IMG/VR virus record: IMGVR_UViG_3300038954_000348
Location: 1 to 30,619 of that record
Reading direction: 5' to 3' (one strand)
From: a virus
DNA length: 30,619 nucleotides
Shown here in pieces: positions 2,422 to 27,872 of this stretch. The notes below the pieces were generated by a model. That model saw nothing but the letters and a program-made list of their open reading frames with translations, did no database searches and was not told the DNA's origin. The translations under genes were made by a program, and so were the position numbers. Positions within the stretch are counted from its first letter, which is position 1; every line of letters begins with the position of its first letter.

Positions 2422-4524
2422 TTAAGCGGGAAAGGTGACGTTGAGGTCGCCCGCGCTGATGCGAAGCGCGCCGCCGGCCCCGACGATCTCGTCAATCGTC
2501 GTGCTGGACAGGAGCGTACCGCCGTCGTAGATGGCGAGGGTGTCGAAGCGCAGGCCGCCGTGTCCTGCGCTCATTAGGTTGTCGTAGGTGAGGGCAGAGT
2601 CATTATCAATTTCACCGGCAAATCCGCCGGTGGACGAGAAGCCGGTGGTGTCCGTGAGCGTCACGCCGCGTACGGTGTCCTCTACCTGCACTGTGAGCAG
2701 CCCGAAATAGTCGCTCTGTCCGTTGTTTGTATCCGCAATGTTTTGCGTCGGCAGATCGACGGTCGTGGCCTTTACGTCGTCGGTGACTTGATCTTTGAAG
2801 ACGAACGTGCGCTTGACGGAGCCATTGAAGGTGCCCGAGGTGTCGTCGTAGCCGCCGGGGTTGACCGCGATGCCGTTCCCGTGCTGCTGGCCGATACCGC
2901 CCGCATCGCCGCCGATGATCTGCGGGTGGTCGAACACGTCGCGCCCCACGAGCACGCCGTCTACGTAGAACGCCGCGATGCCGGTGTCCGCGTCGGCGCT
3001 CCACTCTAGGATGTAGGTATCGACTCCAGGCACCGTGGAGCGAATCTCAGCGGTGTCGGCATCGGAGCCCGCGTTGGACCCGTCGCCGCACTGGAAGATG
3101 AACTCACCGTTGTGGACGGTGAGAGCCATGCCGGTGAACGCCCCCCCAGCCTCTTTCGCAATTTTGCCGTTCGACGTCACGACCGTCACCTCGCAAAGCC
3201 CCGACGCGGCGGTACACGGAGACAGGTCGAAGTGATCGACGCTGTAATCGAGGGGGGTGGGCGGCTCATCGCCAAGATTGGGCGGCGTCCACACGCCGGT
3301 GGCTTCCATGTCCCCTGTGACGCCGCCAACCTGATCCACGTCCGTTGTAATGTGGTCCACGGCGATGTCGCAGAAGTGGACCGTACCCGTAAACCCTCCG
3401 GGGTTGGATGTCGAGTTGTAGCCAGCTCGATTCGCGGCCACACCCGAATGGACGAGACCGATGCCTCCGGGATTATTGCCCGCAAGGTCAGGATTGTTGA
3501 ACGTGTCGGTGCCTTGCACCACCCCGTCCAGATACAAGGCGGCCCGTCCTTCCACGCTCGAGGCCGACCACTCCACGACAAGACGCGAGGTGCCCCGCGA
3601 GGATTCCGAAGGGATCGGGGCCGAGATTTCGGCGGTATCGCTGTCGCTCCCGTAGTTCGACCCATCTCCGCACTGGAAGTAGATATTGCCGTTGTAAGCG
3701 TAGAGGACCAGTCCACTTCCGCTTGCGCCTGCCTCCATGAGAATCCCGTTATCAGCGGGCGTGATGTCGCACACGACGCGGCACGTCGCTTCCTGCGACG
3801 GGGACAGGTCGAGGTAGTCGTCGAGCGTATTCCAGAGAACACCTGCCGGGTACCTCGACATGCGAGACGACCCGCCGGGGTGGGTGTCTGTCGAGACGAG
3901 CACCAGGGCCTCCGCATCGCCGTGTCCCGTCGCCACCGCTGTCGGGTTCTCCTGTACGATGGTCGGGGTAACGACCCCGTGCGCCTGCGCTTCGGCGGCT
4001 GCCGCAAAGTCGATGATACTGATGGTAGAAATGCCAGCGTCTGCCGTCGCGATGCCGTATCCATCCACGGTTCCGACTGTGAGCGGCACCACGATAGAGG
4101 GCTGCACGACGCCCTGCGCCGCCGCGTCTGCCGCTGCCGCAAACTCCACGGGGACCTCTACGACTACGCCCGCGCTGGTCGTCGCCTCGCCCACGCCTGT
4201 AACAGCGCCCGTGACGGTGGGCACCACGATGTCCGGGGTCAGGGTCGCGCGCGCATTGGCGATTGCTTCTGCGAGCACCTGCGGCCCCACGAGCACCGAT
4301 ACGACTGTACTGGCCACCGCTTCGCCGCGGCCGAGCGCCACGGCACTGGCCGGCACGGACTCGATGTTTGGCACCACGACGCCGACACCGTTCGCTTCGG
4401 CCTCTGCGGCAAACTTCGGCCCCACAAAGACCTGCACTTCGGTTGTCGCTTCCGGCACGCCTTGCCCCTGCACGACGCCTTCCGCAACGCGGGCCCTTCG
4501 CGATGTCCAGTAGATGATCGGCAC
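2422..4524 (-). CDS. large fibre/receptor-binding protein with N-terminal repeats and two LamG-like domains
   Basis: 700 aa. Residues about 10-205 contain four divergent repeats of about 45 residues, each with a pattern like FAAEAEANGVVVPNI followed by GxGxA. Two related concanavalin A/LamG-like domains follow (about 225-385 and 415-570). Both carry the string FQCGDGSN and a LDGV/VDGV strand. A C-terminal beta-rich region has TLAIYDGGTLLSS. It begins directly after the tail-tip gene. Known phage proteins of this build bind glycans, so host recognition is the likely role. The repeat shaft may vary in copy number. Confidence 0.8.
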   Translation of the reverse strand: MPIIYWTSRRARVAEGVVQGQGVPEATTEVQVFVGPKFAAEAEANGVGVVVPNIESVPASAVALGRGEAVASTVVSVLVGPQVLAEAIANARATLTPDIVVPTVTGAVTGVGEATTSAGVVVEVPVEFAAAADAAAQGVVQPSIVVPLTVGTVDGYGIATADAGISTISIIDFAAAAEAQAHGVVTPTIVQENPTAVATGHGDAEALVLVSTDTHPGGSSRMSRYPAGVLWNTLDDYLDLSPSQEATCRVVCDITPADNGILMEAGASGSGLVLYAYNGNIYFQCGDGSNYGSDSDTAEISAPIPSESSRGTSRLVVEWSASSVEGRAALYLDGVVQGTDTFNNPDLAGNNPGGIGLVHSGVAANRAGYNSTSNPGGFTGTVHFCDIAVDHITTDVDQVGGVTGDMEATGVWTPPNLGDEPPTPLDYSVDHFDLSPCTAASGLCEVTVVTSNGKIAKEAGGAFTGMALTVHNGEFIFQCGDGSNAGSDADTAEIRSTVPGVDTYILEWSADADTGIAAFYVDGVLVGRDVFDHPQIIGGDAGGIGQQHGNGIAVNPGGYDDTSGTFNGSVKRTFVFKDQVTDDVKATTVDLPTQNIADTNNGQSDYFGLLTVQVEDTVRGVTLTDTTGFSSTGGFAGEIDNDSALTYDNLMSAGHGGLRFDTLAIYDGGTLLSSTTIDEIVGAGGALRISAGDLNVTFPA

Positions 4525-4526
4525 AG

Positions 4527-6911
4527 TCAGGCGGGCGTGAGCGTGAAGGCAATCGAAATGTCCGCCATCGCGGGGTCGGCCGGGTCGGGCGCGGTGACCA
4601 CAAGCAGCTCATCGGCGTTGATCGTCTCCGCGATGGTGGCCGTCGTTGTCTGGGACGACACCGACACCGTCTGCGTCGCATTGCTCCCCACGGTGATCGA
4701 AAAATCGACGGCGGAATTCGGTGTGGTCCCCACGTGGATCAGTACGTCGTCCACCGTGAATGGAAATCGGAGCGGCATCTGCATCAGCGTCTCGCCTGCT
4801 GCGGGACGCCCCGGGACGAATGGCCCAATCTGATAGCTCGCTCCCTCAATCGTGGTCGGGTCCACACCCAGCGCCTTCACAATGGTCGCCCGATCGACGC
4901 CCACCGTGTCCGGCGCGCGCGTCGGCGCGTCGAAGGTTTCCGACCGCCCGCTCGCAATAGTGCGTGCTACGGCGGCCGGGAGCGACGTCTTCAGCTCCAC
5001 GCACGTCACCTCGTAGAAGCCCCCTTCGGTGTCCGATGTCTGCCGTTCCTCGATCGCGAGCGGCCAGTAGCGCGTGCCGTCGTATTCGATCGCGCGGTCG
5101 GACAGCGGAATAGCCGTCGGACGCGTGAGGCGCAGCCGCATCCGCTCCTGGGCGGACGATCGCAGGCGGAGCGCTTCCTCGGCCGCGAGCATCGAGACGC
5201 TAATGCCCTGCGACTGGCCGAGCACCGACCATCCCTGGGCGGGATTGCCCTGGTCGTCGAGAAGAGCGCCGAGGGAGCCTTTCCATGGTCCCGTGCCGAT
5301 GCGCACGGTGCGCTCCAGCTTCTCGCCCTCACTGCGCGCGGTGTGGTACGCCCGGTAGATCGTCGCCGCTTCCTGGTCGCTTTTGCGCTCGAAGGCGAGA
5401 CCGTCCCAGTTCGCGTACAGAATGAAGTCATCGGTACTCGAGGAGCCGGGGCGCGCCACGGCGTTGTACACGCGCAGCTCCAGGTCCAGCCCTTCGGGTG
5501 GGGCAGGAATGTCGTGCGTGACGGACTCGTAGGCTTGCTCGTTGACGTCGCTGTCCAGGTGGGTGTTCTTCATTCCGTGCGGGCCCAAGCTGCCGGCATC
5601 GGTCCACCCTTGCCCTTCGACCCACCAGAACGTGGTGCCGGAGGGCGCGGGCCCGCCGATTGCCCAAAAAGCTCGTGAGGCGTCTGGGGTATCGGTGGGA
5701 TTCGGGTTGCCCTGACCGTCGGTGAGGCGACCCTGCACACGCAACGTGAGCTGCATGTTTTCGGCATCGGCCGACAGAGCGCCCAGGTCCGCCACGGCGT
5801 AGCGGTCAGCGAAATTCGCAAACGAGCTGAGCGGCGCCGCGCTGTCGGCCGTCTGCTGGCCCTCGATTTCCAGGTAGTGCGAGCCCCCGTACAGCTGCGC
5901 CTCTATGTCTTGCTCCTTGAAGACACCTCCGAGGCTGACTTCCGTGCTGCCGTCGTTCACGAAGAAGCTCCAGCTGCCAGTTTCGAGCTCTTCGAAGCCA
6001 CCGTCGATGTCGATCACGTTCGGCGCGCCGTGCTCGTAGGTGATGCGCGAGTCGATCACGGGCTTCTCCCCGCTCACGCGGTCGCTGTTCTCTTCCCAAG
6101 CCTCGGCCGTCACATCGACCGTGGCCGGGCGCGTCGTCTGCCCGGTGAGCGTGCCGTTCGTGTCGTACTGCCAGACGTCGACCGTCGCGCCTGAAGCGAA
6201 TGCCGCGGGCTGGTGCATCCGCCACCGGCCGGTGCGCTGCACGAGGATGCAGTTGCAGTGCGTGAGCAGGTCGTCCAGCACCGCTCCCGCATTCATCGGC
6301 CGAAGGGTGCCATCACCGCCGTCGCGATAAAAAGCGCCGTTCGGCACTTGAACCGAGCCCGGGTCGTCGGCCGCCCCCATCGACTCGGGGCGCCAGTCCA
6401 TCACCATGTCGAGCGGCAGGCCGAGCCCGAGGCGCGAGAGGATCGACGTCACGGCCACGGCAAGCGTCCGCGTGCCGCCCAGCGGAAAGGCGTTGCCCGT
6501 GGCGTCCGTCCAGTCGTCGTTCAGGCCACGCAGGCGGTCTTTCGCGCGCAGCGTCACCCAGTCCGAGACGTTGTCGGCGCGGGGCGTGTCCGTCGCGCTC
6601 GGGACGCAGTAGCCCACGAACTGTTCGCTGCCGCCCTTTTTGATCGTCAGGCGGTAGTCGCGCGGGTCGCTGCCGGGGATGGCGCGCAGGAGCTGCATGA
6701 GCGTGGCGTCCTCGACGTACAGGCGGCAGGTGCCCGCTAGCGAGATGCGGGGCGTGAGCACGTGGTCGGCCGCGTCGCCGGGCGTGATGAGGTAGCCGTC
6801 CGGGCGCGGGCTGTACGTCGTGCCGCTGTAGCCCTCGGCATCGAGCACGATCTGGCAGACGTCACCGTCGTGCGTGCGAAACGATGTGTCTACGAGTGTG
6901 CCAAACGCCAC
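4527..6911 (-). CDS. tail-tip/baseplate hub-like protein
   Basis: 794 aa from a GTG start two bases after the tape-measure stop. The same frame is open further upstream (to 6989), but that would overlap the tape-measure gene by 77 bp and the extra N-terminus is low-complexity. The N-terminal part contains a beta-rich module (DGDVCQIVLDAEGYSG...RISLAGTCRLYVED). The rest is long, acidic and beta-rich. The position directly after the tape measure and before the fibre gene is that of the distal tail/tail-associated hub proteins of siphoviruses. No catalytic motif was seen. The assignment rests mainly on gene order. Confidence 0.75.
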   Translation of the reverse strand: MAFGTLVDTSFRTHDGDVCQIVLDAEGYSGTTYSPRPDGYLITPGDAADHVLTPRISLAGTCRLYVEDATLMQLLRAIPGSDPRDYRLTIKKGGSEQFVGYCVPSATDTPRADNVSDWVTLRAKDRLRGLNDDWTDATGNAFPLGGTRTLAVAVTSILSRLGLGLPLDMVMDWRPESMGAADDPGSVQVPNGAFYRDGGDGTLRPMNAGAVLDDLLTHCNCILVQRTGRWRMHQPAAFASGATVDVWQYDTNGTLTGQTTRPATVDVTAEAWEENSDRVSGEKPVIDSRITYEHGAPNVIDIDGGFEELETGSWSFFVNDGSTEVSLGGVFKEQDIEAQLYGGSHYLEIEGQQTADSAAPLSSFANFADRYAVADLGALSADAENMQLTLRVQGRLTDGQGNPNPTDTPDASRAFWAIGGPAPSGTTFWWVEGQGWTDAGSLGPHGMKNTHLDSDVNEQAYESVTHDIPAPPEGLDLELRVYNAVARPGSSSTDDFILYANWDGLAFERKSDQEAATIYRAYHTARSEGEKLERTVRIGTGPWKGSLGALLDDQGNPAQGWSVLGQSQGISVSMLAAEEALRLRSSAQERMRLRLTRPTAIPLSDRAIEYDGTRYWPLAIEERQTSDTEGGFYEVTCVELKTSLPAAVARTIASGRSETFDAPTRAPDTVGVDRATIVKALGVDPTTIEGASYQIGPFVPGRPAAGETLMQMPLRFPFTVDDVLIHVGTTPNSAVDFSITVGSNATQTVSVSSQTTTATIAETINADELLVVTAPDPADPAMADISIAFTLTPA

Positions 6912-6912
6912 G

Positions 6913-8679
6913 TTACGCGTTTTTGAATGATTGATTGCGCTCGAGCTCCAGTCGCAGGCGGTCAAGGCCGATGTCCCACGTCGCCTCAAAGCTCCCGGTC
7001 GCCGGCTGCGCCGCAGGTTGGATCATGCTTTCTACGCGGTCGATTGGCGCGACCACCTCTCCGGCATGCAGCATGGCCAGCCCGTCGCGCTTCACAAAGC
7101 CGCCGGAATCGAGGCCAAGAAGCCCGCTGAAGATACTCCCGAAGCTGCCGCCCAGACTGCCGAGGGAGCCGATGCCAAACAGGCTCATAATGCCTTTCAA
7201 GATCGTGGCCTGCGTCACGGCGCGGATCAGCTGCGAGACGACGCGCTGCAGGCTCTGTACGATCGCACGGCCGACAGAGACGAAGACGTCGCCCAGGCTT
7301 TGAACCCGCGTCTGCAGGGTGGCCATGCGCCCGAGCACGTCGCCCAGTCCCGCCCCGATGCGCGAGACCATGCGCACGCCCACGCGCTGCGTCGTGGTGA
7401 ACCCGGCCGTCAGCTGCTCTCGGACGCGCTGCAGCATCCGCGCCTGGGCCTGTAGGCCGCCGACTGACGTAGACCCCGGCCGGAAGGTCGACCCATCCGC
7501 AGGTTGCGGGCCGGAGACGTCGCCGCCGGCAGGTGTGGCGCGCATCGAACGGAAGCCGACGCCTCCAAAGATCAGGTCCATGGTGTTCTGGAGACGCTGG
7601 AACTGATCGGTCGGAATTTCCGACGTCAACACTTCTAGACGTTTCTGAACGGTCCTGAGTTGCTGCGCGAACCGGTCGAGGAGCGCTTCAGGAAAAGCGT
7701 TGGGGAACTTGTCCTGCAGCTTCTGCAGCTCTTGAAACGCCGACATGCGGAAGCCCTCGATCTGCGACAGCATCTCCTCGCGCGGAATCAGGCCGCGCTC
7801 GAACCGCTCGCGCACGTTGTCGATTTCGTCCGTCATGGTCGACACGACGTCGCGAATGCCACTGAGGTCGCCCACGCCCTGCACGAGCGCATCGCCCGTG
7901 CTCATGCCGCCGCCCTGCCCCGCAGTCACGAAGCCCCGCACCATCGCTCCGAGTCCACCCGGCACGTTTTTGAGGACGTCGATCGAGAACTGCGAAAAGG
8001 TGGCCAGGTCGTCCGACGCGGCGCGCAGGAGCTTCGCAAAGCCGCGACCCGCCGGTAGGATCTCGCCGCGGATCACCTCCTCGAACGCCGTCGAAAACTC
8101 CCGAGCGGTCTCCTTGTAGGTCGCCGTTAATGCCTGGACGTCGCGCTGTAAGCCTTGCGGCCCGAACTCGGCCGCGAGCTGGGTCGCGACGACAGCCAGG
8201 CCTGCGCCTCCGGCCAGTGCTCCGGTCGCCGCCACGGCCGCTGCGCCGAGCGCCTGTATGTGCGGCGGCAGCATCCGAAACGCTTCGAACCCTTCCTGCA
8301 CTTCGTCGAGCTCACCCGGCAGCCGAAAGCTCCCGCCACGCCGTCCATCCCCGCGAATGCGGTCCTCGTCGACGTCCGTGTTGATGTCAATCGTCCGGCC
8401 GTCGAGGCGGTCAATTTGGTCCTCAATTCCCTCAAACTTGTCGCTTAGCCGCTGCATCGCCACGCGGGCCCGCTTCGTGTCGATGCCGTCCAAAGCGCGA
8501 TCCAGGTCCTCTACGCTGTCCTCGCCGGCCTCCATCGCCGTGATCAGCGCTTCGCCGGCACGCAGGGCCTCGTCGCCCAGCTCCTCGACGTCGCCCGCCA
8601 GCTTTTGCATGTCGCGCCGCAGCTTGCGCAGGCCCTTCTGCTCGAAGCGGTACTCGAGGCTTTCTGAAACGTCGGCCAT
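6913..8679 (-). CDS. tail tape measure protein
   Basis: 588 aa. The N-terminal 120 residues are helical and heptad-rich (GLRKLRRDMQKLAGDVEEL). Hydrophobic Ala/Gly-rich stretches occur at about 143-172 (AAAVAATGALAGGAGLAVVA), and near the C-terminus a Gly/Ser/Phe/Leu segment (LGSLGGSFGSIFSGLLG) is followed by DSGGFVKRDG...LHAGEVV, typical of tape-measure C-termini. It lies directly downstream of the frameshifted tail assembly chaperone pair. It sets tail length and helps DNA entry. At 588 aa it predicts a fairly short tail. One CRISPR spacer of this prophage (26221-26256) resembles its C-terminal coding sequence at 7127-7150. Confidence 0.9.
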   Translation of the reverse strand: MADVSESLEYRFEQKGLRKLRRDMQKLAGDVEELGDEALRAGEALITAMEAGEDSVEDLDRALDGIDTKRARVAMQRLSDKFEGIEDQIDRLDGRTIDINTDVDEDRIRGDGRRGGSFRLPGELDEVQEGFEAFRMLPPHIQALGAAAVAATGALAGGAGLAVVATQLAAEFGPQGLQRDVQALTATYKETAREFSTAFEEVIRGEILPAGRGFAKLLRAASDDLATFSQFSIDVLKNVPGGLGAMVRGFVTAGQGGGMSTGDALVQGVGDLSGIRDVVSTMTDEIDNVRERFERGLIPREEMLSQIEGFRMSAFQELQKLQDKFPNAFPEALLDRFAQQLRTVQKRLEVLTSEIPTDQFQRLQNTMDLIFGGVGFRSMRATPAGGDVSGPQPADGSTFRPGSTSVGGLQAQARMLQRVREQLTAGFTTTQRVGVRMVSRIGAGLGDVLGRMATLQTRVQSLGDVFVSVGRAIVQSLQRVVSQLIRAVTQATILKGIMSLFGIGSLGSLGGSFGSIFSGLLGLDSGGFVKRDGLAMLHAGEVVAPIDRVESMIQPAAQPATGSFEATWDIGLDRLRLELERNQSFKNA

Positions 8680-8683
8680 CGGC

Positions 8684-9019
8684 TTAGGTGTGGGTGGTGG
8701 TCAGGTCGGTCGTCCAGTCCAGGTCGGTCGTCTCCCGGACGCGGTGCTTGAAGGCCTGCATCGTCTCGGTATCCTGTGCGCTCGGGCTCGAGGGCCCGCT
8801 GTACGGGTCGATCGGGTCCGCCCCGAAGGCGCTCCGCACTTCGTTGCGCAGACCGATAAGGTGCATCTCCTGGCGCCGCATGCGATCGCGATAGCCGCGG
8901 AGGCGCATGAGCAGGTGGCGCAGGTCGCCCTCGAGGATCGCGCGCCGGGTGGCACCGGTCGCGTAGAGCCGCACAAACAGGCGCTGCGTCGTCAGCTCGT
9001 CGGGCTCGGGCCCGGCGCT
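8684..9019 (-). CDS. tail assembly chaperone, frameshift-encoded T-like extension
   Basis: This reading frame has no good start of its own (the first candidate is a GTG at 8974). It stays open upstream through the GGGAAAA heptamer at 9019-9025. A -1 slip there fuses 111 residues (SAGPEPDELTTQRLFVRLYATG...) to the first 148 residues of the upstream chaperone, giving a product of about 259 aa. In lambda-like phages the G and GT proteins, made by the same kind of slip, bring the tape measure and tail tube protein together and are absent from the virion. The extension is positively charged in its middle (HLLMRLRGYRDRMRRQE) and ends 5 bp before the tape-measure start. Confidence 0.8.
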   Translation of the reverse strand, partial: SAGPEPDELTTQRLFVRLYATGATRRAILEGDLRHLLMRLRGYRDRMRRQEMHLIGLRNEVRSAFGADPIDPYSGPSSPSAQDTETMQAFKHRVRETTDLDWTTDLTTTHT

Positions 9020-13888: not shown

Positions 13889-14371
13889 TTAGTCTGTGAG
13901 TTTCGCGTCGAAAACCAGCGCGTCGGTGAGGCGGGCGTCGAGGACCGCAAGGCGGGACGGCTCGGACTCAACGAGCACCAGCCGCTCCCCGCGGTCGGTG
14001 AGGCTCAGGGTGCCCTGGTTTTTCGTAGCGCCCGCGAGGGACACCGACTCTTGGCTGTTCGTGATGGAAAGCGTGCCGGTGATGGCGTTGACAGTGACCT
14101 GCCCCTCCAGCGACAAGATCTCTCCGGCATCGGTCAGTGCAAGGGTGCCCGTCGTGATCGTGGAGCCGTCCGATGCCGAGATCGCTTCTGGGCCGTCGGT
14201 GAGGGCGAGGCTGCCGATGATGACCGTGCTTTGCATGTAGCCCGAAGACACGTATCCGCTCGCAACATACGGGTCAATGCCCACATACCCACCTGATACG
14301 TATCCGCTCGCAACATACGGGTCAATGCCCACATACCCACCTGATACGTATCCGCTCGCAACATACGCCAT
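13889..14371 (-). CDS. tandem-repeat fibre-like protein
   Basis: 160 aa with two repeat types. Residues 3-46 hold 2.75 copies of a 16-residue repeat (YVASGYVSGGYVGIDP). Residues about 50-140 hold four copies of a strand pair pattern (GTLALTDAGEILSLEG and relatives, with GSLALTDGPEAIS, GTLSITNSQESVSLAG, GTLSLTDRGERLVLVE). The C-terminus has two short related LTD-ended units (LDARLTD, FDAKLTD). Regular beta repeats suggest a fibrous shaft or adhesin-like structure. Tyr/Gly/Ser repeats at the N-terminus resemble virion attachment or adhesive segments. Confidence 0.7.
   Translation of the reverse strand: MAYVASGYVSGGYVGIDPYVASGYVSGGYVGIDPYVASGYVSSGYMQSTVIIGSLALTDGPEAISASDGSTITTGTLALTDAGEILSLEGQVTVNAITGTLSITNSQESVSLAGATKNQGTLSLTDRGERLVLVESEPSRLAVLDARLTDALVFDAKLTD
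14234..14365 (-). repeat. 48-bp tandem repeat, 2.75 copies
   Basis: Two full 48-bp units (14318-14365, 14270-14317) are almost identical at DNA level, and a third partial unit covers 14234-14269. They encode the 16-residue repeats of the fibre-like protein. Near identity of the units implies recent expansion by slippage or recombination. Confidence 0.9.
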
Positions 14372-21759: not shown

Positions 21760-23118
21760 CTACCCGAGGAAGGACGTCGTCGGCGACTGCGACTCGCGGT
21801 CGAAGGCGCCCTCCACGCGGCGGCGGATTTCGTCCTCGTTCGGGTCGTAGCCCTCGTCGCGCAGCTGGTCGACGACGATCTGGCTCGCGGTTTCGACGTC
21901 GGCCGGGAGGCGGCTGCCGAAGATGCGCCGCGCCAGGTCGTCCTCGCCAGCGCCGACGACATCGGAGTAGTCAGCGGGCCACGAGGCGGACACGCCCGGG
22001 TCGGTGGGCTGCGGGCCCGCGAACGTTCTGAAATCGGCCGCCTGAGCCATGAGCCGCAGGATGCGCATCTCTGCGTCGGCCATCGTCTCGGCGACGACCG
22101 AGAGCGCGGCAGCCGCCGCGCCCTGGTGCTTGATCTGCGCTTCGGTGGCACTCTGGGCCGTCCGCGCACCTTCTTCGAGCTCGTTGTACGCGACGCGGTT
22201 CAGCTCTTTTTGCTTCTCAGTCAGCACCTGCGTGCCAAGCTCCGCCCCGTCGGTGGGCATTGACAGGCCCTTGTGCGGCCCGTAGTCGTTGTCGTAGGGC
22301 AGCACCTTCATCCCGTGGCGGAGGCGGTGCTCGATGTCGTCGGAGAGGTCGGTGTTGTCGCCCACGCCGAGCTGAATCAAGCCGTTCATGGCCGCCGAGA
22401 CGGCAAAGTCTCTACGCGATGTCATCCGGTAGATGCTGCGATGCTTCTTCGCGATCTGGAGCCCGACTCTCGCCTTCCACGGCAGCTGAAGGCGCAGCAC
22501 AGGTGCGGCCGGTCGGCCGTTCTCGTCTACGAAGAAGGCGTCGTCTTCGGCGTACGTGCCCTGGTCGACGAGCTGGTCCTTGTCGTCCTCTTCGACATAC
22601 ACTTCCCAGCCGTCGGGCATGTAGCGCGTCCAGCTCGTCTCCTCGGTGCCGTCCTCGAAGACGTCGTCGGCCTGCGTGCGCGTCCCCAGGATCACCGCTT
22701 CCTCGCTCGTCCAGTGCGGCATTGACAGGGGCGTGGTGATGTGCAGGCCGCGCTTGGGGTTGAGGACGACGACGGCGGTATTGTACTGCAGCAGCGTCTC
22801 GGCGAGCTCGAGGAGGAGCACCGTGTAGTCCTCGCCGTCCGGGCCCGCGGTCTCGAGGTCGTCGTCGGAGAGGGGCCCGAGGTCTCGATCGACATCCTCG
22901 GCGCGCTGAAACAGCATGCCGGCCAGGCGGCTCGTCAGAAAGCGCGTGCGCGGCGTGAAATCGGCATCGTCCTGGCGCTGCTCGTAGTGCTCCTGGTGCT
23001 CAAAGTAGCGCTGCACGAGCTCGTGCTCGGCGCCCTCGCCGGTCACCATGCGCTGCACGAGCTGCCAGTCGCGGTGGTGCGCGTCGTACGTGGGATGCGT
23101 CGCGTCGTGGATGGCCAT
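21760..23118 (-). CDS. portal protein
   Basis: 452 aa, acidic. Central region has the portal pattern: RSIYRMTSRRDFAVSAAMNGLIQLGVGDN, MPTDGAELGTQVLTEKQKELNRVAYNELEEGARTAQSATEAQIKHQGAAAAAL (crown-proximal helices). The C-terminus has DEIRRRVEGAFDR. It most resembles the DUF4055 portal group. It is placed between the large terminase and minor head genes. It forms the dodecameric DNA gate of the capsid. Confidence 0.88.
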   Translation of the reverse strand: MAIHDATHPTYDAHHRDWQLVQRMVTGEGAEHELVQRYFEHQEHYEQRQDDADFTPRTRFLTSRLAGMLFQRAEDVDRDLGPLSDDDLETAGPDGEDYTVLLLELAETLLQYNTAVVVLNPKRGLHITTPLSMPHWTSEEAVILGTRTQADDVFEDGTEETSWTRYMPDGWEVYVEEDDKDQLVDQGTYAEDDAFFVDENGRPAAPVLRLQLPWKARVGLQIAKKHRSIYRMTSRRDFAVSAAMNGLIQLGVGDNTDLSDDIEHRLRHGMKVLPYDNDYGPHKGLSMPTDGAELGTQVLTEKQKELNRVAYNELEEGARTAQSATEAQIKHQGAAAAALSVVAETMADAEMRILRLMAQAADFRTFAGPQPTDPGVSASWPADYSDVVGAGEDDLARRIFGSRLPADVETASQIVVDQLRDEGYDPNEDEIRRRVEGAFDRESQSPTTSFLG

Positions 23119-23124
23119 GGGCGG

Positions 23125-24462
23125 TCAGTCGTTGGCGGAGAGGATGGTGCCGAAGGCGTCGTCGTGCTGGTCCGGGTCGTACAGGTGCGTGAAGAGGCCG
23201 TAGCGGTCGCGGTCGCACGTGTGGTCGCGCTCCTTCAGCGGCTTGTCCTCGCCGCGCTTCTGAGCCTTCTCGTCCCACACGTAGCTGGAGTACTCCTTGG
23301 GCGTCTCCTTGCAGTCGGGATCGAACGTCAAGCACGGCCACCCGTCCGCTGCAGCCTGGCTGTCGAGCATCGAGCTCACGAAGCGGATGCCGTCGAGGAC
23401 GTCGTTCTCTGCCTCCTTCACGTCGAAGCCGCGGTTGCGGAGCTCCTGAATGAACGATGCGGCCGACGGGTCGACGTAGATGGTCGGGTCGATCGAGCGG
23501 TCGCCGACCCGAGCGGGGAGCCAGTCGATGAGGTCCTGGGCGTGCTGGGCGTCCGTCTTTTGCCCGTCCGATCGGCCGTCATGGTAGTGCTCGCGGAAGG
23601 TGTGCGCGAAGGGGCGCTCCTGGCCGTCCTCGGTCTGCTCGTGCCAGATCCCCTTCAGGCTGAAGGTGGTGGGGTTCGAGGTGCCATAGTCGCAGTCGAC
23701 CAGGAACGTCTCGACCTGCCGGCGTCGGTGATCCGGAAGGTCGCGGACGTGCATGTCGTCGTCCCACATCGCGTAAATCGCGCCGGCCGCGAGCACCCAC
23801 AGCCCAAGGATATAGCGCTGAAACCACATGCCCGTGTACTCGGCCTTTAGCGCCTGGACGTAGTCGGGGTCGAGAAAGATGTTGTCGTCCAGGCGAAAGC
23901 GCCACTGGCGCAGGTCGAGATCGGCTTCTCGATCAAGATACTCCTCTTTCAGCCAGTGATACGGCGAGTCGGGGTTCGTCGTCCCAAACAGCTTCGCGCC
24001 GGCGACCGACATGCGAGCCAGGACCTGCTTGAAGACGTTCTGGGGCATGAGCGTGAGCTCATTGCAAAGGGCGCCGGCGAGGGTCATGCCGGTGATCTTG
24101 TCCTCCGCCCGCTCGTCGTTGGCGCCCTCGAGCTCGACGCGACGGCCGGCAATGCGCGCCTCCTTCTTGCCGAGCGAGTACTCGACGAGCGCGCTCCCAA
24201 ACCACTGGCGCATCGGCCGTAGCACGTTACGCTCCAGGCTCTTCATCGTCTTGCCCATCATGAGAAGATCGCCTGGCGGCCCGGTGCACACGTACTCGAA
24301 CCAACGAAAGAGCTCCAGGCCGACGGTCTTGCCCGAGCGGACGGGCCCCCAGGCGATGTTGAGGCGCGCCGTCGACTGGGCGAAGGTGCGCCGCTGCTGC
24401 GGGGAGACGAGCGGATCGGTGGCGCCCACTTCCGTGCCGAGATGTACAGGCTGGTCACTCAT
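23125..24462 (-). CDS. terminase large subunit
   Basis: 445 aa. ATPase half: Walker A GPVRSGKT (39-46), Walker B-like ALCNELTLM (131-139, catalytic E135) and coupling motif GTTNPDSPYHW (160-170). Nuclease half: FLVDCDYGTSNPTTF (253-267, D256/D258) and YVDPSAAS near 330. This is the packaging motor that translocates DNA and cuts concatemers. Overlaps the small subunit gene by 4 bp. The arrangement and motifs are typical of terminase_6-type enzymes. Confidence 0.95.
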   Translation of the reverse strand: MSDQPVHLGTEVGATDPLVSPQQRRTFAQSTARLNIAWGPVRSGKTVGLELFRWFEYVCTGPPGDLLMMGKTMKSLERNVLRPMRQWFGSALVEYSLGKKEARIAGRRVELEGANDERAEDKITGMTLAGALCNELTLMPQNVFKQVLARMSVAGAKLFGTTNPDSPYHWLKEEYLDREADLDLRQWRFRLDDNIFLDPDYVQALKAEYTGMWFQRYILGLWVLAAGAIYAMWDDDMHVRDLPDHRRRQVETFLVDCDYGTSNPTTFSLKGIWHEQTEDGQERPFAHTFREHYHDGRSDGQKTDAQHAQDLIDWLPARVGDRSIDPTIYVDPSAASFIQELRNRGFDVKEAENDVLDGIRFVSSMLDSQAAADGWPCLTFDPDCKETPKEYSSYVWDEKAQKRGEDKPLKERDHTCDRDRYGLFTHLYDPDQHDDAFGTILSAND

Positions 24463-25070
24463 CCCATGTCGGGCGGGTGATACTCGTCGGTGTTGGTGCG
24501 CATGGCCGCCATGCGGTCCAGGAGCTCGTCGACCTTCTCGGACTGGTCGGCCGGCTGGTCCTTCAGCATCCGGTACTTCTCCCGAAGCAGCTTGCGGTGC
24601 TCGGCCTGCACCCGCGTCAGCGCCTCCTCAATCTTCTGAATGCGCTCGATCGCGTGGCTGTGCTGGGCCTGCTCGGCCTCGGTCGGGACGCCGACGCCGG
24701 AGCTCGCCGTGACGGCCTCCTCTTCCGTCCATCCGGTCAGCGTCAGTTCCTCCCGCTTGATCCGCTGGATACGCTGCATCATGCGCCGCTCACGGATGGC
24801 GATAAGGCGGATCTGCTCTTCGAGCTGGGCGAGCTGGTCGGTGTCGAGGCCGTTCCAGATCCGGACCTCGTCCTCCGTCAGCGTGTCGGCGTAGATGCTT
24901 TCGTGCTCGCCGGTCGTGACGGCGTTCTTGTTGCCGGGCTTTCCGCCAGGGCTGGCCCCACCATGATGCTTGCATCGGCCTTCGCCCGTGTGATCGGTGC
25001 CCCACCCCGCCGGGTGCTTGCATGGATCACCGGAGCGGGTTTGAGCTCCGCACCGGGGCGTTTCGGGCAT
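24459..25070 (-). CDS. terminase small subunit
   Basis: 203 aa. The N-terminus has a Cys/His zinc motif (CGAQTRSGDPCKHPAGWGT and CKHHGG), found in many small terminases, then GKPGNKNAVTTGEHE. The body is a helical coiled coil (QLEEQIRLIAIRERRMMQRIQ, RIQKIEEALTRVQAEHRKLLREKY). It would recognise the packaging site and regulate the large subunit, which overlaps downstream. ATG at 25070 chosen; an out-of-frame ATG lies 7 bp upstream. It starts 45 bp after motif copy 4. Confidence 0.9.
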   Translation of the reverse strand: MPETPRCGAQTRSGDPCKHPAGWGTDHTGEGRCKHHGGASPGGKPGNKNAVTTGEHESIYADTLTEDEVRIWNGLDTDQLAQLEEQIRLIAIRERRMMQRIQRIKREELTLTGWTEEEAVTASSGVGVPTEAEQAQHSHAIERIQKIEEALTRVQAEHRKLLREKYRMLKDQPADQSEKVDELLDRMAAMRTNTDEYHPPDMG

Positions 25071-25114
25071 CGTTCATGGGGTCGTTTTCCAAATCGACGG
25101 GAGTCAGCGCCTCT

Positions 25115-25134
25115 GTCACCAACGACGGGGGGAG
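25115..25134 (-). promoter_or_regulatory. recurrent 20-bp late-region motif, copy 4
   Basis: The plus strand reads GTCACCAACGACGGGGGGAG, 18 of 20 as in copy 3. It lies in the gap between the sigma-like gene and the small terminase gene. This is a natural site for a late promoter or a packaging-region binding site. Confidence 0.55.
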
Positions 25135-25142
25135 GATCATCC

Positions 25143-25727
25143 TCACGCGACGCGCTCGGGACGGTGCTCGCGCCACAGCGTTTTCGCCGCGTCGGGAAGG
25201 CGGCCGGCGTCGGCGAGAGCGTCGTACACGCGGGCCAGCTCAATCGCGCCATCCGAATGCTTCGGGCCCGTCTGGGGGGCACGATGGTCGGGGTCGGGCG
25301 CGGGCGGCTCGTCGGCCGTGGCCACGTGGTCACGCACCTTGTCGCGGAAGGTGCGGCGGAGGTGCAGGCGGAGCGTGCGTTGGCCGGGCTGCCAGGCAAG
25401 CAGGGCGCGCAGAAAAAGGGGCCACGCGTCCTGCAGGACGTCCTCGACGCCAAGCGGGCCGGTCACGGAGCGGGCGGCATCGCGGCAGATGTAGAAGATT
25501 GTCTCGGCCTCAGAGGCGAAGAGGGCATGCAAGGCGCGAGACTCGTCGGAAGAGGGCGAGCACTCGCGCACGGCCTTCTTGGCGGCGTGATACGAATGCT
25601 TCTGTTTGACGGAGCGGGCGCGGGCCATCCACTGGCGCGTTAGGCGGCGGACGGCAGAGGCGGGCAGGTCGGCGGCGGCCTGGCGGTGGCGCTGGGCCCA
25701 GTCGCGGGTGTTCATGCGCAGAGGCAT
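25143..25727 (-). CDS. sigma-factor region-2-like protein, putative late regulator
   Basis: 194 aa. Residues about 92-135 (GVEDVLQDAWPLFLRALLAWQPGQRTLRLHLRRTFRDKVRDHV) follow the sigma-70 region 2 pattern: an acid-rich DLxQ-like helix, an aromatic/acidic helix and a basic helix with R/D residues. A region 4 helix-turn-helix is not obvious, although residues 160-190 are helical. Basic N-terminus (about 25-55). At the head of the late operon, a phage sigma-like activator would fit. Start overlaps the preceding stop (TGATG). The sigma assignment is tentative. Confidence 0.6.
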   Translation of the reverse strand: MPLRMNTRDWAQRHRQAAADLPASAVRRLTRQWMARARSVKQKHSYHAAKKAVRECSPSSDESRALHALFASEAETIFYICRDAARSVTGPLGVEDVLQDAWPLFLRALLAWQPGQRTLRLHLRRTFRDKVRDHVATADEPPAPDPDHRAPQTGPKHSDGAIELARVYDALADAGRLPDAAKTLWREHRPERVA

Positions 25728-26090: not shown

Positions 26091-26127
26091 AGAAAACGCC
26101 CCACCCGGCGGTCGGCCGAGTGGGGCG
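26091..26127 (-). terminator. intrinsic terminator ending the lysogeny operon and CRISPR array
   Basis: Leftward: stem CGCCCCAC/GTGGGGCG (26120-26127 and 26097-26104), a C/A mismatch, inner stem CGGC/GCCG, a 5-nt loop, then TTTTCT. It begins within the last degenerate CRISPR repeat, so it ends a right-to-left array transcript precisely. This supports minus-strand transcription of the array. Confidence 0.8.
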
Positions 26128-26351
26128 GGATACCACAAAGGTGCGATTAAAGCCGTAGCAGGGCGTCCACCATGCGGTCGGCCACGTCGTCTTTCAACAC
26201 CTCAAAGGTGCGATTAAAGCAGCGTCCTTCCTCGGCAACTTCGGAAGCGTCTTCAGCTTTCAACACCTCAAAGGTGCGATTAAAGCCTTGCGAGCAGCAT
26301 CTTCTTCGTCGAGACCGGCGTCTTTCAACACCTCAAAGGTGCGATTAAAGC
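26124..26351 (-). CRISPR. type I-B-like CRISPR mini-array (3 full repeats, 1 degenerate, 3 spacers)
   Basis: Three identical 30-nt repeats lie at 26322-26351, 26257-26286 and 26191-26220. A degenerate copy at 26124-26153 keeps 18 nt (26136-26153). Spacers are 35 nt (26287-26321), 36 nt (26221-26256) and 37 nt (26154-26190). On the minus strand the repeat begins GCTTTAATCGCACC, has a 5-bp hairpin CACCT-TTG-AGGTG and ends in the 8-nt tag GTTGAAAG, as in type I-B repeats. The degenerate copy is distal and followed by a terminator, giving right-to-left orientation. No cas genes or AT-rich leader are present. Processing and interference would depend on host type I-B Cas proteins. The 36-nt spacer resembles the prophage's own tape-measure gene region (7127-7150). 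Confidence 0.95.
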
Positions 26352-26433
26352 CCCCGCGTGTGCGGGGTCACTATCGTGCGCAACAGCGCCGAAGACTTGG
26401 CCGCGGGTCTATCCCCGCGTGTGCGGGGTCACT
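26352..26433 (-). CRISPR. type I-E-like CRISPR unit fused to the I-B-like array (2 repeats, 1 spacer)
   Basis: The repeat at 26405-26433 has, on the minus strand, AGTGACCCCGCACACGCGGGG followed by the 8-nt tag ATAGACCC, 29 nt in all. A second copy at 26352-26372 contains only the first 21 nt, identical. The spacer at 26373-26404 is 32 nt, and the period is exactly 61 nt, the type I-E value. The stem CCCCGC/GCGGGG and the ATAGACCC tag resemble type I-E (Cas6e) repeats. The second copy stops at the end of the hairpin and passes without a spacer into the first I-B-like repeat. A host with type I-E Cascade could process it. Confidence 0.88.
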
Positions 26434-26465: not shown

Positions 26466-26795
26466 CTACACCTCCGCAGCCTCGAGCTCGCGTCCGCAAT
26501 TGGGGCAGTAGCGATGCCGCTCGTCCACCGCTTCGCCGCATTCCGCGCAGCGCACCTTCACCATGTCTCCGGAGCGTGTAGACGCAGCGGCCTCCTCGAC
26601 GGCCGCGCTCGTGCTTTTGCCGAGCAGGAGAAGCAAAAAGATGACGAGGAACGGCGTGAAGACGAGCGCCAGCAGGAAGAAGCCCAGAAACGAACGACCT
26701 TGCTTTTCAGCGAGCTTGCCAGCCCCGAAGCACAGGGCCGCCCAGACACAAAGAAGGCCGATCGTGATGATGGCGAATAATGTAGATTCGGGCAT
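26466..26795 (-). CDS. two-TM zinc-ribbon membrane protein
   Basis: 109 aa. TM segments at about 7-25 (FAIITIGLLCVWAALCFGA) and 36-58 (FLGFFLLALVFTPFLVIFLLLLL) with a basic loop between. A cytoplasmic-type zinc ribbon at the C-terminus has CAEC-x10-CPNC (VRCAECGEAVDERHRYCPNCGREL). The gene lies between the lipoprotein gene and the CRISPR unit, whose first repeat is 32 bp past its stop. Expressed with the repressor, it may act in superinfection exclusion or in the lysogen envelope. The specific family is unknown; host proteins of this layout also exist. Confidence 0.8.
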   Translation of the reverse strand: MPESTLFAIITIGLLCVWAALCFGAGKLAEKQGRSFLGFFLLALVFTPFLVIFLLLLLGKSTSAAVEEAAASTRSGDMVKVRCAECGEAVDERHRYCPNCGRELEAAEV

Positions 26796-26800
26796 GGGTT

Positions 26801-27241
26801 TTAGTTGAGCGGGTTCACACTACCAAGCAGATCGGCCTCGGTGTCAAGGCTTTCACCGTCTACGCGAATGGTAGCAAGTCGAGCCGTTTCATCGCTGACC
26901 TCATCGAGCAAGGCCCCACCGTCTTGGCGATACACCTCTACGTACGCCCCATTCTGCGCATCAAAGTCATTGCGCCCGTACGCGACGAGTGCGCTGTCCG
27001 GGTGCAGCGTTGCGATGAGAATGCCGCCCCCGTCGAGATGGTCCGTCGTCCCCCATGCTCCGGAGCAGCAGAGCCCTTCGGTGTCGACGTTCTTGGCCAC
27101 CACGTAGTAGCCGGCGTCGTACGTGCCGGCATCAATGCGGATGTCCACCGGACCGGCGTTATCGCCGCCACCGACGACGCCACAGCCGACCCAGAGGCTA
27201 CACAAGCACACGACCCAAAATTTCAAAATCGATTCCCTCAT
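26801..27241 (-). CDS. putative lipoprotein, lysogenic conversion candidate
   Basis: 146 aa from the second ATG (MRESILKFWVVCLC), with an upstream ATG at 27259 as alternative. An N-terminal hydrophobic segment ends in SLWVGC, an imperfect lipobox, followed by Gly-rich GVVGGGDN, as in Bacteroidota lipoproteins. The mature part is beta-rich with a CC pair (EGLCCSGAWG). It overlaps the repressor stop by 44 bp, so it is probably expressed during lysogeny. Surface lipoproteins in this position often block superinfection. Confidence 0.65.
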   Translation of the reverse strand: MRESILKFWVVCLCSLWVGCGVVGGGDNAGPVDIRIDAGTYDAGYYVVAKNVDTEGLCCSGAWGTTDHLDGGGILIATLHPDSALVAYGRNDFDAQNGAYVEVYRQDGGALLDEVSDETARLATIRVDGESLDTEADLLGSVNPLN

Positions 27242-27824
27242 CAAGCTGAAGTGTCTCATTCGGATAAGAATCAGAGTCTGAGATGATACGGATACGCTGC
27301 CCAGAGAGTCGCTGCAAGCGTTTGATTTGTATTGCCCCCTCCAGTCGAAAAAGGTAGACGTCGTCCTGCTTGATGTCGAGCTCCGGCTCCGGAAAGCGCA
27401 ACACGGGCACCATGCTATGCTTCTGGTATTTCTCGCCCATCGAATCTCCGCGCACGAATACCCAAAATACGTCCTTTCCCGGTCGACTCATCGCTTCGGG
27501 ACCGTTGACGTGACCGATGGGGTCTTCCTGAAGAGCGTACGTGCCGTCTCCCATTGAGGCTTGGAGTCCGTAGATTGGATCGGTTTGACCAGCCGATACC
27601 GGTCGATCGTTTACCGGTCTCGGTTGCGCGTTTTCAGGCAACTCGTACACGCCATGACCTGTTTTCTCGAGCTTGCCCTCCCGTGCGAGCCTATTCATAG
27701 CATTTCGGACGGTTGAAGCCGCGTATTCCGCACCAAGCTCATCGCACATCTCGCCCGGGCTCATCGGTGCGCCGATCTCACGCATCACCTCTAGGACTTT
27801 GTCGTCAGCCGATTGACTGGGCAT
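27198..27824 (-). CDS. S24/LexA-like phage repressor
   Basis: 208 aa from ATG at 27824; a GTG at 27848 would add eight residues but would put both operators inside or beside the coding start. N-terminal winged HTH (SADDKVLEVMREIGAPMSPGEMCDELGAEYAASTVRNAMNRLAREGKL). C-terminal S24 domain with catalytic Ser in VRGDSM and Lys in IQIKRL (S128, K168 in this numbering). The GDSM is followed by an unusual insertion (GEKYQKHSMVPVLRFPEPE). An Ala-Gly-type cleavage site is not obvious. It likely maintains lysogeny and responds to DNA damage. It is divergent from a ribbon-helix-helix gene. The downstream lipoprotein, membrane protein and CRISPR units share its transcription direction. Confidence 0.85.
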   Translation of the reverse strand: MPSQSADDKVLEVMREIGAPMSPGEMCDELGAEYAASTVRNAMNRLAREGKLEKTGHGVYELPENAQPRPVNDRPVSAGQTDPIYGLQASMGDGTYALQEDPIGHVNGPEAMSRPGKDVFWVFVRGDSMGEKYQKHSMVPVLRFPEPELDIKQDDVYLFRLEGAIQIKRLQRLSGQRIRIISDSDSYPNETLQLDEGIDFEILGRVLV

Positions 27825-27872
27825 GACTAGTCTTAACAGTTTGTTCACGGTATTGACTAAACATGACTGGTC
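27812..27872. promoter_or_regulatory. duplicated operator-like repeats in the divergent control region
   Basis: Two 21-bp repeats start at 27812 and 27852, 40 bp apart. The consensus is ATTGACTrrrCATGACTrGTC with differences at four positions. Each contains TGACT twice and an 8-bp palindrome-like GACTrGTC (perfect in the first copy, 27825-27832). The first overlaps the repressor ATG. They are placed to be bound by the repressor or the ribbon-helix-helix protein and to control both directions. The intervening DNA is AT-richer and presumably holds the divergent promoters. Confidence 0.55.

Follow-up and report, generated by a model that had tools for sequence, protein, structure and literature searches.

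A cas-less mini-CRISPR array joins type I-E-like and type I-B-like repeats in one unit of a phage contig

Introduction

Can one short phage transcript carry guides for two incompatible CRISPR systems? If it can, phages hedge against variation in immunity from one host strain to the next, and in Salinibacter ruber CRISPR immunity is plasmid-borne and varies among strains. The question is raised by a 30,619-base virus record (IMG/VR record IMGVR_UViG_3300038954_000348, positions 1 to 30,619; hereafter the window), in which the original prediction, made from the letters and their open reading frames, saw a prophage-borne hybrid of type I-E-like and type I-B-like repeats without cas genes. Viral mini-arrays and RNA anti-CRISPRs (Racrs) are described as single-type in those parts of the reports that were available to us (PMC6858448, PMC11656645, PMC10651486), and a limited literature search for hybrid or chimeric arrays found none, an absence that is no proof of novelty. 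The locus also offers a clean natural test of two questions: can two Cas6 enzymes share one RNA, and do viral arrays serve in conflicts among phages or as RNA decoys?

Results

Anatomy of the array

The array is read on the minus strand of the window, from 26433 to 26124, and consists in this order of an I-E repeat, a spacer, a 21-nt I-E repeat, three I-B repeats with their spacers and a fourth I-B repeat, that is, six repeat units of two types and four spacers. The I-E-like repeat R1 (26405..26433, minus strand; AGTGACCCCGCACACGCGGGGATAGACCC) is complete, with 29 nt, a 6-bp stem and the 5′ handle ATAGACCC, and is followed by the 32-nt spacer E1 (26373..26404, minus strand). Repeat R2 (26352..26372, minus strand; AGTGACCCCGCACACGCGGGG) holds the first 21 nt only, which is the stem-loop up to the expected Cas6e cut site; the I-E period is 61, and R2 is joined without a gap to I-B-like repeat 1 (26322..26351, minus strand), a 30-nt repeat of sequence GCTTTAATCGCACCTTTGAGGTGTTGAAAG that ends in GTTGAAAG. 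Spacer B1 (26287..26321, 35 nt), an identical repeat 2 (26257..26286), spacer B2 (26221..26256, 36 nt), an identical repeat 3 (26191..26220) and spacer B3 (26154..26190, 37 nt) follow on the same strand, and the array closes with a degenerate I-B-like repeat (26124..26153, minus strand; GCTTTAATCGCACCTTTGTGGT/ATCCC), in which 21 of the 22 nt up to the expected Cas6 cut site are kept and the 8-nt handle is lost. That a 30-mer should occur three times unchanged and a 21-nt stretch twice, all with the spacing of a CRISPR, is far beyond chance.

The I-E unit has the 28–29-nt repeat, GC stem-loop and 32-nt spacer of its type, and the I-B unit has a 30-nt repeat ending in TTGAAAG/T, spacers within the range of 34–41 nt and, in relatives, linkage to I-B cas genes. 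As a short series of repeats and spacers, spaced as in a CRISPR and located in a viral genome, the locus resembles a virus-borne mini-CRISPR array. The repeat and spacer lengths, coordinates, 61-nt period and continuity of the two halves given in the original prediction hold for every base when the minus strand is read, and the absence of cas genes that it reported agrees with zero cas matches among the window proteins scanned, in a contig that is possibly incomplete. Rfam gave no match within the array. No spacer matches elsewhere in the window, and self-targeting was hence ruled out.

Genome context

The window proteins include terminase subunits, a portal, a major head protein, a tape measure protein and a CI-like repressor, and because of these genes we regard the window as a contig of a tailed, probably temperate phage. 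The prophage state that had been proposed is plausible: the CI-like S24 repressor speaks for it, but no integrase was seen in the 30.6-kb contig. A tRNA gene lies at the left contig end (52–124) and is a possible attachment site.

The gene of the CI-like repressor (27198..27848, minus strand; S24 peptidase domain; phrog_4, phrog_6201, PF00717) is the first of a putative operon on the minus strand, in which a putative lipoprotein gene (26801..27259) overlaps its end and a gene for a small membrane/zinc-ribbon protein (26466..26795; PF13240) begins 5 nt behind the lipoprotein gene. The stop codon of the zinc-ribbon gene is 32 nt ahead of R1, and the array is leaderless and last in the operon; with only these 32 nt between stop codon and R1 and no promoter-like site, it does not have a leader and promoter of the type found in the portogloboviruses SPV1 and SPV2. 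Directly after the array stands a strong rho-independent-type terminator (26093..26127, minus strand), whose 13-bp hairpin leads into TTTT. A sigma-70-like promoter was looked for and not found, with the reservation that promoters of Rhodothermota may differ. The simplest reading is that the array is co-transcribed with cI, which predicts its expression in the lysogen. A 38-nt similarity to the Salinibacter phage SRUTV-1 was discarded, as it covers the terminator hairpin region only and no array.

A relative of the window phage (G003; TerL 78% identical, nucleotide identity 72% over 3.3 kb) holds different cargo and no repeats in the slot downstream of cI; by eye, this cargo (G003 22253–25532, L066 about 4250–7530) includes a gene resembling a Panacea/DUF4065-type antitoxin. 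A major-capsid search of genome contigs returned no prophage relative. Elsewhere in the window, at about 14250–14370, an ORF contains 48-nt tandem repeats encoding YVASGYVSGGYVGIDP-like repeats.

Related arrays in other viruses

Large collections were searched by pattern, by which pattern-exact relatives only are recoverable. Scans of IMG/VR (2.9 million viral contigs) with degenerate I-B repeats returned only the contigs L055, L056 and L057, and scans of viral contigs with the exact 30-mer and 25-mer of the I-B repeat and the exact 20-mer of the I-E repeat gave no matches. Counting the window, I-B repeats of this class were found in four viral contigs; every one carries a unit of a second type beside the I-B unit, and in three of them the two are fused.

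The plan of the window recurs, with other spacers, in L056: after an I-E repeat and a 32-nt spacer comes a second I-E repeat, which stops at the Cas6e site and is fused to an I-B repeat, followed by a 37-nt spacer and a terminal I-B repeat. L056, a contractile-tailed phage by its baseplate genes, is unrelated to the window phage. The contig as assembled is a perfect palindrome and partly misassembled, and the array lies within one arm. Since the fused design thus occurs with other spacers in at least one unrelated phage, the array of the window is not an assembly accident. At 8626–8668, 0.4 kb upstream of its array and just before an 87-aa ORF, L056 also bears a lone I-E/I-B repeat fusion that lacks spacers, looks decoy-like and could be a dual RNA anti-CRISPR. 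L057 is a contig of 45.8 kb that encodes CI and an integrase and resembles a prophage; in it, an I-E mini-array with a 32-nt spacer is followed 0.3 kb on by an I-B mini-array with two 36-nt spacers, the units being unfused. L055/L060 (IMGVR_UViG_3300028304_000116) has at 2690–2900 an I-B repeat, a 34-nt spacer and an I-B repeat that is fused at its Cas6-site end to another hairpin repeat. This second type (hairpin CACCCNTC..TTAC..GGGTGAG, then ATTGAAAG/T, ending in GATTGAAAG) is followed by a 37-nt spacer and a second copy; between the copies the stem sequence is changed and the pairing kept, and a blastn search with this repeat against PLSDB came back empty.

A scan for Salinibacter-type I-E repeats returned an I-E mini-array of one type only, which likewise finishes with a 21-nt repeat, as well as two repeats that stand alone or are cut at the end. 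The mini-array, with one 32-nt spacer, is the same in contigs from two samples (L067, about 8890–9010; L070, about 590–700). As a side observation, Saccharomonospora phage PIS 136 (JX006077.1, L012) has at 1935–2146 an unannotated I-E-like mini-array, in which the repeat recurs every 61 nt in at least four copies.

Repeat ends and Cas6 sites

The cut positions of Cas6e and Cas6 were placed according to established I-E and I-B biochemistry. Both terminal repeats of the window array, the 21-nt R2 and the fourth I-B repeat, stop at the expected cleavage site. When terminal repeats were compared with the first repeat of their unit, changes were found at 43 of 64 positions 3′ of the Cas6 site and at 15 of 172 positions 5′ of it (Fisher p 7e-19); this count covers eight repeats in five viruses (window, L055, L056, L057, L067), some of which may share ancestry, and the p value is indicative only. 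First repeats are intact, and the I-E stems can still fold in all viruses compared. Changes that lie 3′ of the Cas6 site are as expected if 3′-end processing alone matters, and ends at the expected cut sites indicate that each half of the array has what crRNA maturation needs and little more. Decay of the terminal repeat is found in host arrays too.

Host systems and spacer targets

The original prediction called for both repeats to be sought in host relatives, and this was borne out in family and not in the exact sequence: related repeats accompany complete I-E and I-B systems in S. ruber, and the exact I-B 30-mer is absent from the genome contig collection. Plasmid pSR66 of S. ruber M1 carries a complete I-B system with CTYCTAATCGCACCTTTGAGGTATTGAAAG repeats and plasmid pSR118 of strain SP73 a complete I-E system with GGTAACTCCGCACACGCGGAGATAGACCC repeats, and both systems have been reported (PMC6060240). 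The assignment of the window repeats as I-E-like and I-B-like is supported by these close variants, and the repeat families and spacer lengths are shared with the window array. In contrast to the cas-less array of the window, the systems of M1 and SP73 are complete, single-type and plasmid-borne, in separate strains and with 38 and 105 spacers, respectively. Against each of the S. ruber systems encountered, the window repeats show several differing positions. Plasmid pSR47 of strain RM158 has a lone I-E repeat, GGTGACCCCGCACCCGCGGGGATAGACCC, to which R1 is identical at 27 of 29 positions; this lone repeat (L011 2088–2116) stands directly after an ORF, with no listed cas genes in the stretch examined. 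Host I-E spacers (SP73) are 32 nt long in 61 of 64 cases and host I-B spacers are 34–41 nt with a mode of 36. The window spacers, with 32 and 35–37 nt, thus have the S. ruber host lengths, which supports the reading as a mini-array.

One I-E spacer of SP73 resembles the TerS gene of the phage family to which the window belongs, with 6 mismatches in L016 and 8 in the window at the same position; the spacer encodes AGWGTDHLGE where the TerS of the window has AGWGTDHTGE, and shuffled spacers never came down to 6 mismatches in three rounds. This match points to Salinibacter, a genus of salt-loving bacteria, as the most likely host. For the spacers of the window itself, DNA searches of INPHARED, PLSDB and the individual loci retrieved found no protospacers above background, and a six-frame peptide protospacer search likewise gave nothing above background.

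Discussion

A probable mini-array for two host systems

We consider it rather probable that the locus is a cas-less, leaderless mini-array that either host system could use, with guides probably directed against competing phages. Transcription of the cI operon would read through the array and stop at the terminator. Where the host has an I-E system, Cas6e would cut behind each of the two I-E stem-loops, which would yield a single crRNA of 61 nt for I-E Cascade, made of an 8-nt handle, the 32-nt spacer and a 21-nt stem-loop, and in a host with an I-B system Cas6 would free three I-B crRNAs. With these guides, the CRISPR system present in a given host strain, be it I-E or I-B, would be turned on rival phages or plasmids, which would amount to superinfection exclusion.

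The mini-arrays of the Sulfolobales portogloboviruses SPV1 and SPV2 share with the window array the few spacers, lack of cas genes and host-like repeats, and are given a role in inter-virus conflict in the part of the report consulted (PMC6858448). They differ in having leaders and probably being able to gain spacers, and the same part of that report describes no fused repeats of two subtypes in one transcript (PMC6858448), whereas the window array is leaderless, lies within a lysogeny operon and has repeats ending at Cas6 sites. Leaderless mini-arrays of phages and prophages likewise have one to few spacers and host-type repeats, occur in tailed phages and have no cas genes, and those described in the accessible portion of PMC11656645 are all single-type, while the window array is two-type.

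The strongest rival, which we judge unlikely, is a dual RNA anti-CRISPR, whose fused repeats would titrate Cas6 and Cas7 of either system into dead-end complexes, so that the phage would escape both and the content of the spacers would be irrelevant. Racrs too are viral mimics of CRISPR repeats without cas genes, and their I-E members were tested and work, according to the available part of PMC10651486. The solitary fused repeat beside the array of L056 and the absence of protospacers from the databases and loci searched keep this explanation alive, and the lone I-E repeats in L069 and S. ruber pSR47 are also in its favour. However, a Racr is by definition a solitary repeat in that portion of the source (PMC10651486), whereas the window locus has repeated units of two subtypes with correctly sized spacers between them. 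Moreover, I-E and I-B spacer lengths are kept in every multi-repeat unit, and the upstream handles are kept while terminal decay occurs only where crRNA maturation has no need of the sequence. These lengths, the retained handles and the presence of several spacers speak for the mini-array rather than the RNA anti-CRISPR.

It is less likely still that one half only, for example I-B, is active, and that the I-E unit is the remnant of an older mini-array recombined with the end of a host I-B array, which would make the two-system appearance functionless. Phages of similar samples (L067/L070) do have I-E mini-arrays of one type only that finish with the same 21 nt, terminal decay is not peculiar to viruses, and the units of L057 are separate; but a chance remnant does not sit easily with a second-type unit beside I-B in four of four viral contigs of this class, fused in three, or with I-E stem-loops that are intact in all compared viruses. 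A transduced fragment of a host CRISPR or an assembly chimera without a phage role, to which the host-like repeats and the palindromic, partly misassembled L056 might point, is highly improbable, the chimera being rejected outright, because the same architecture recurs with other spacers in unrelated phages, the array is contiguous with the lysogeny operon and terminator, and trimmed repeat ends are atypical of a random fragment.

Returning to the two-system mini-array, such ‘bilingual’ loci may well form a class in phages of Salinibacter and its relatives, in which crRNA units of two subtypes share a locus, every unit ends at the Cas6 site of its subtype, and a prophage could commandeer either system, depending on its host strain. 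The recurrence in unrelated phages makes the two-system array a target for searches. Small, apparently coiled-coil ORFs lie between the repeat units of L056 (8703–8966) and L057 (about 1735–1920), and they possibly encode accessory or anti-CRISPR proteins.
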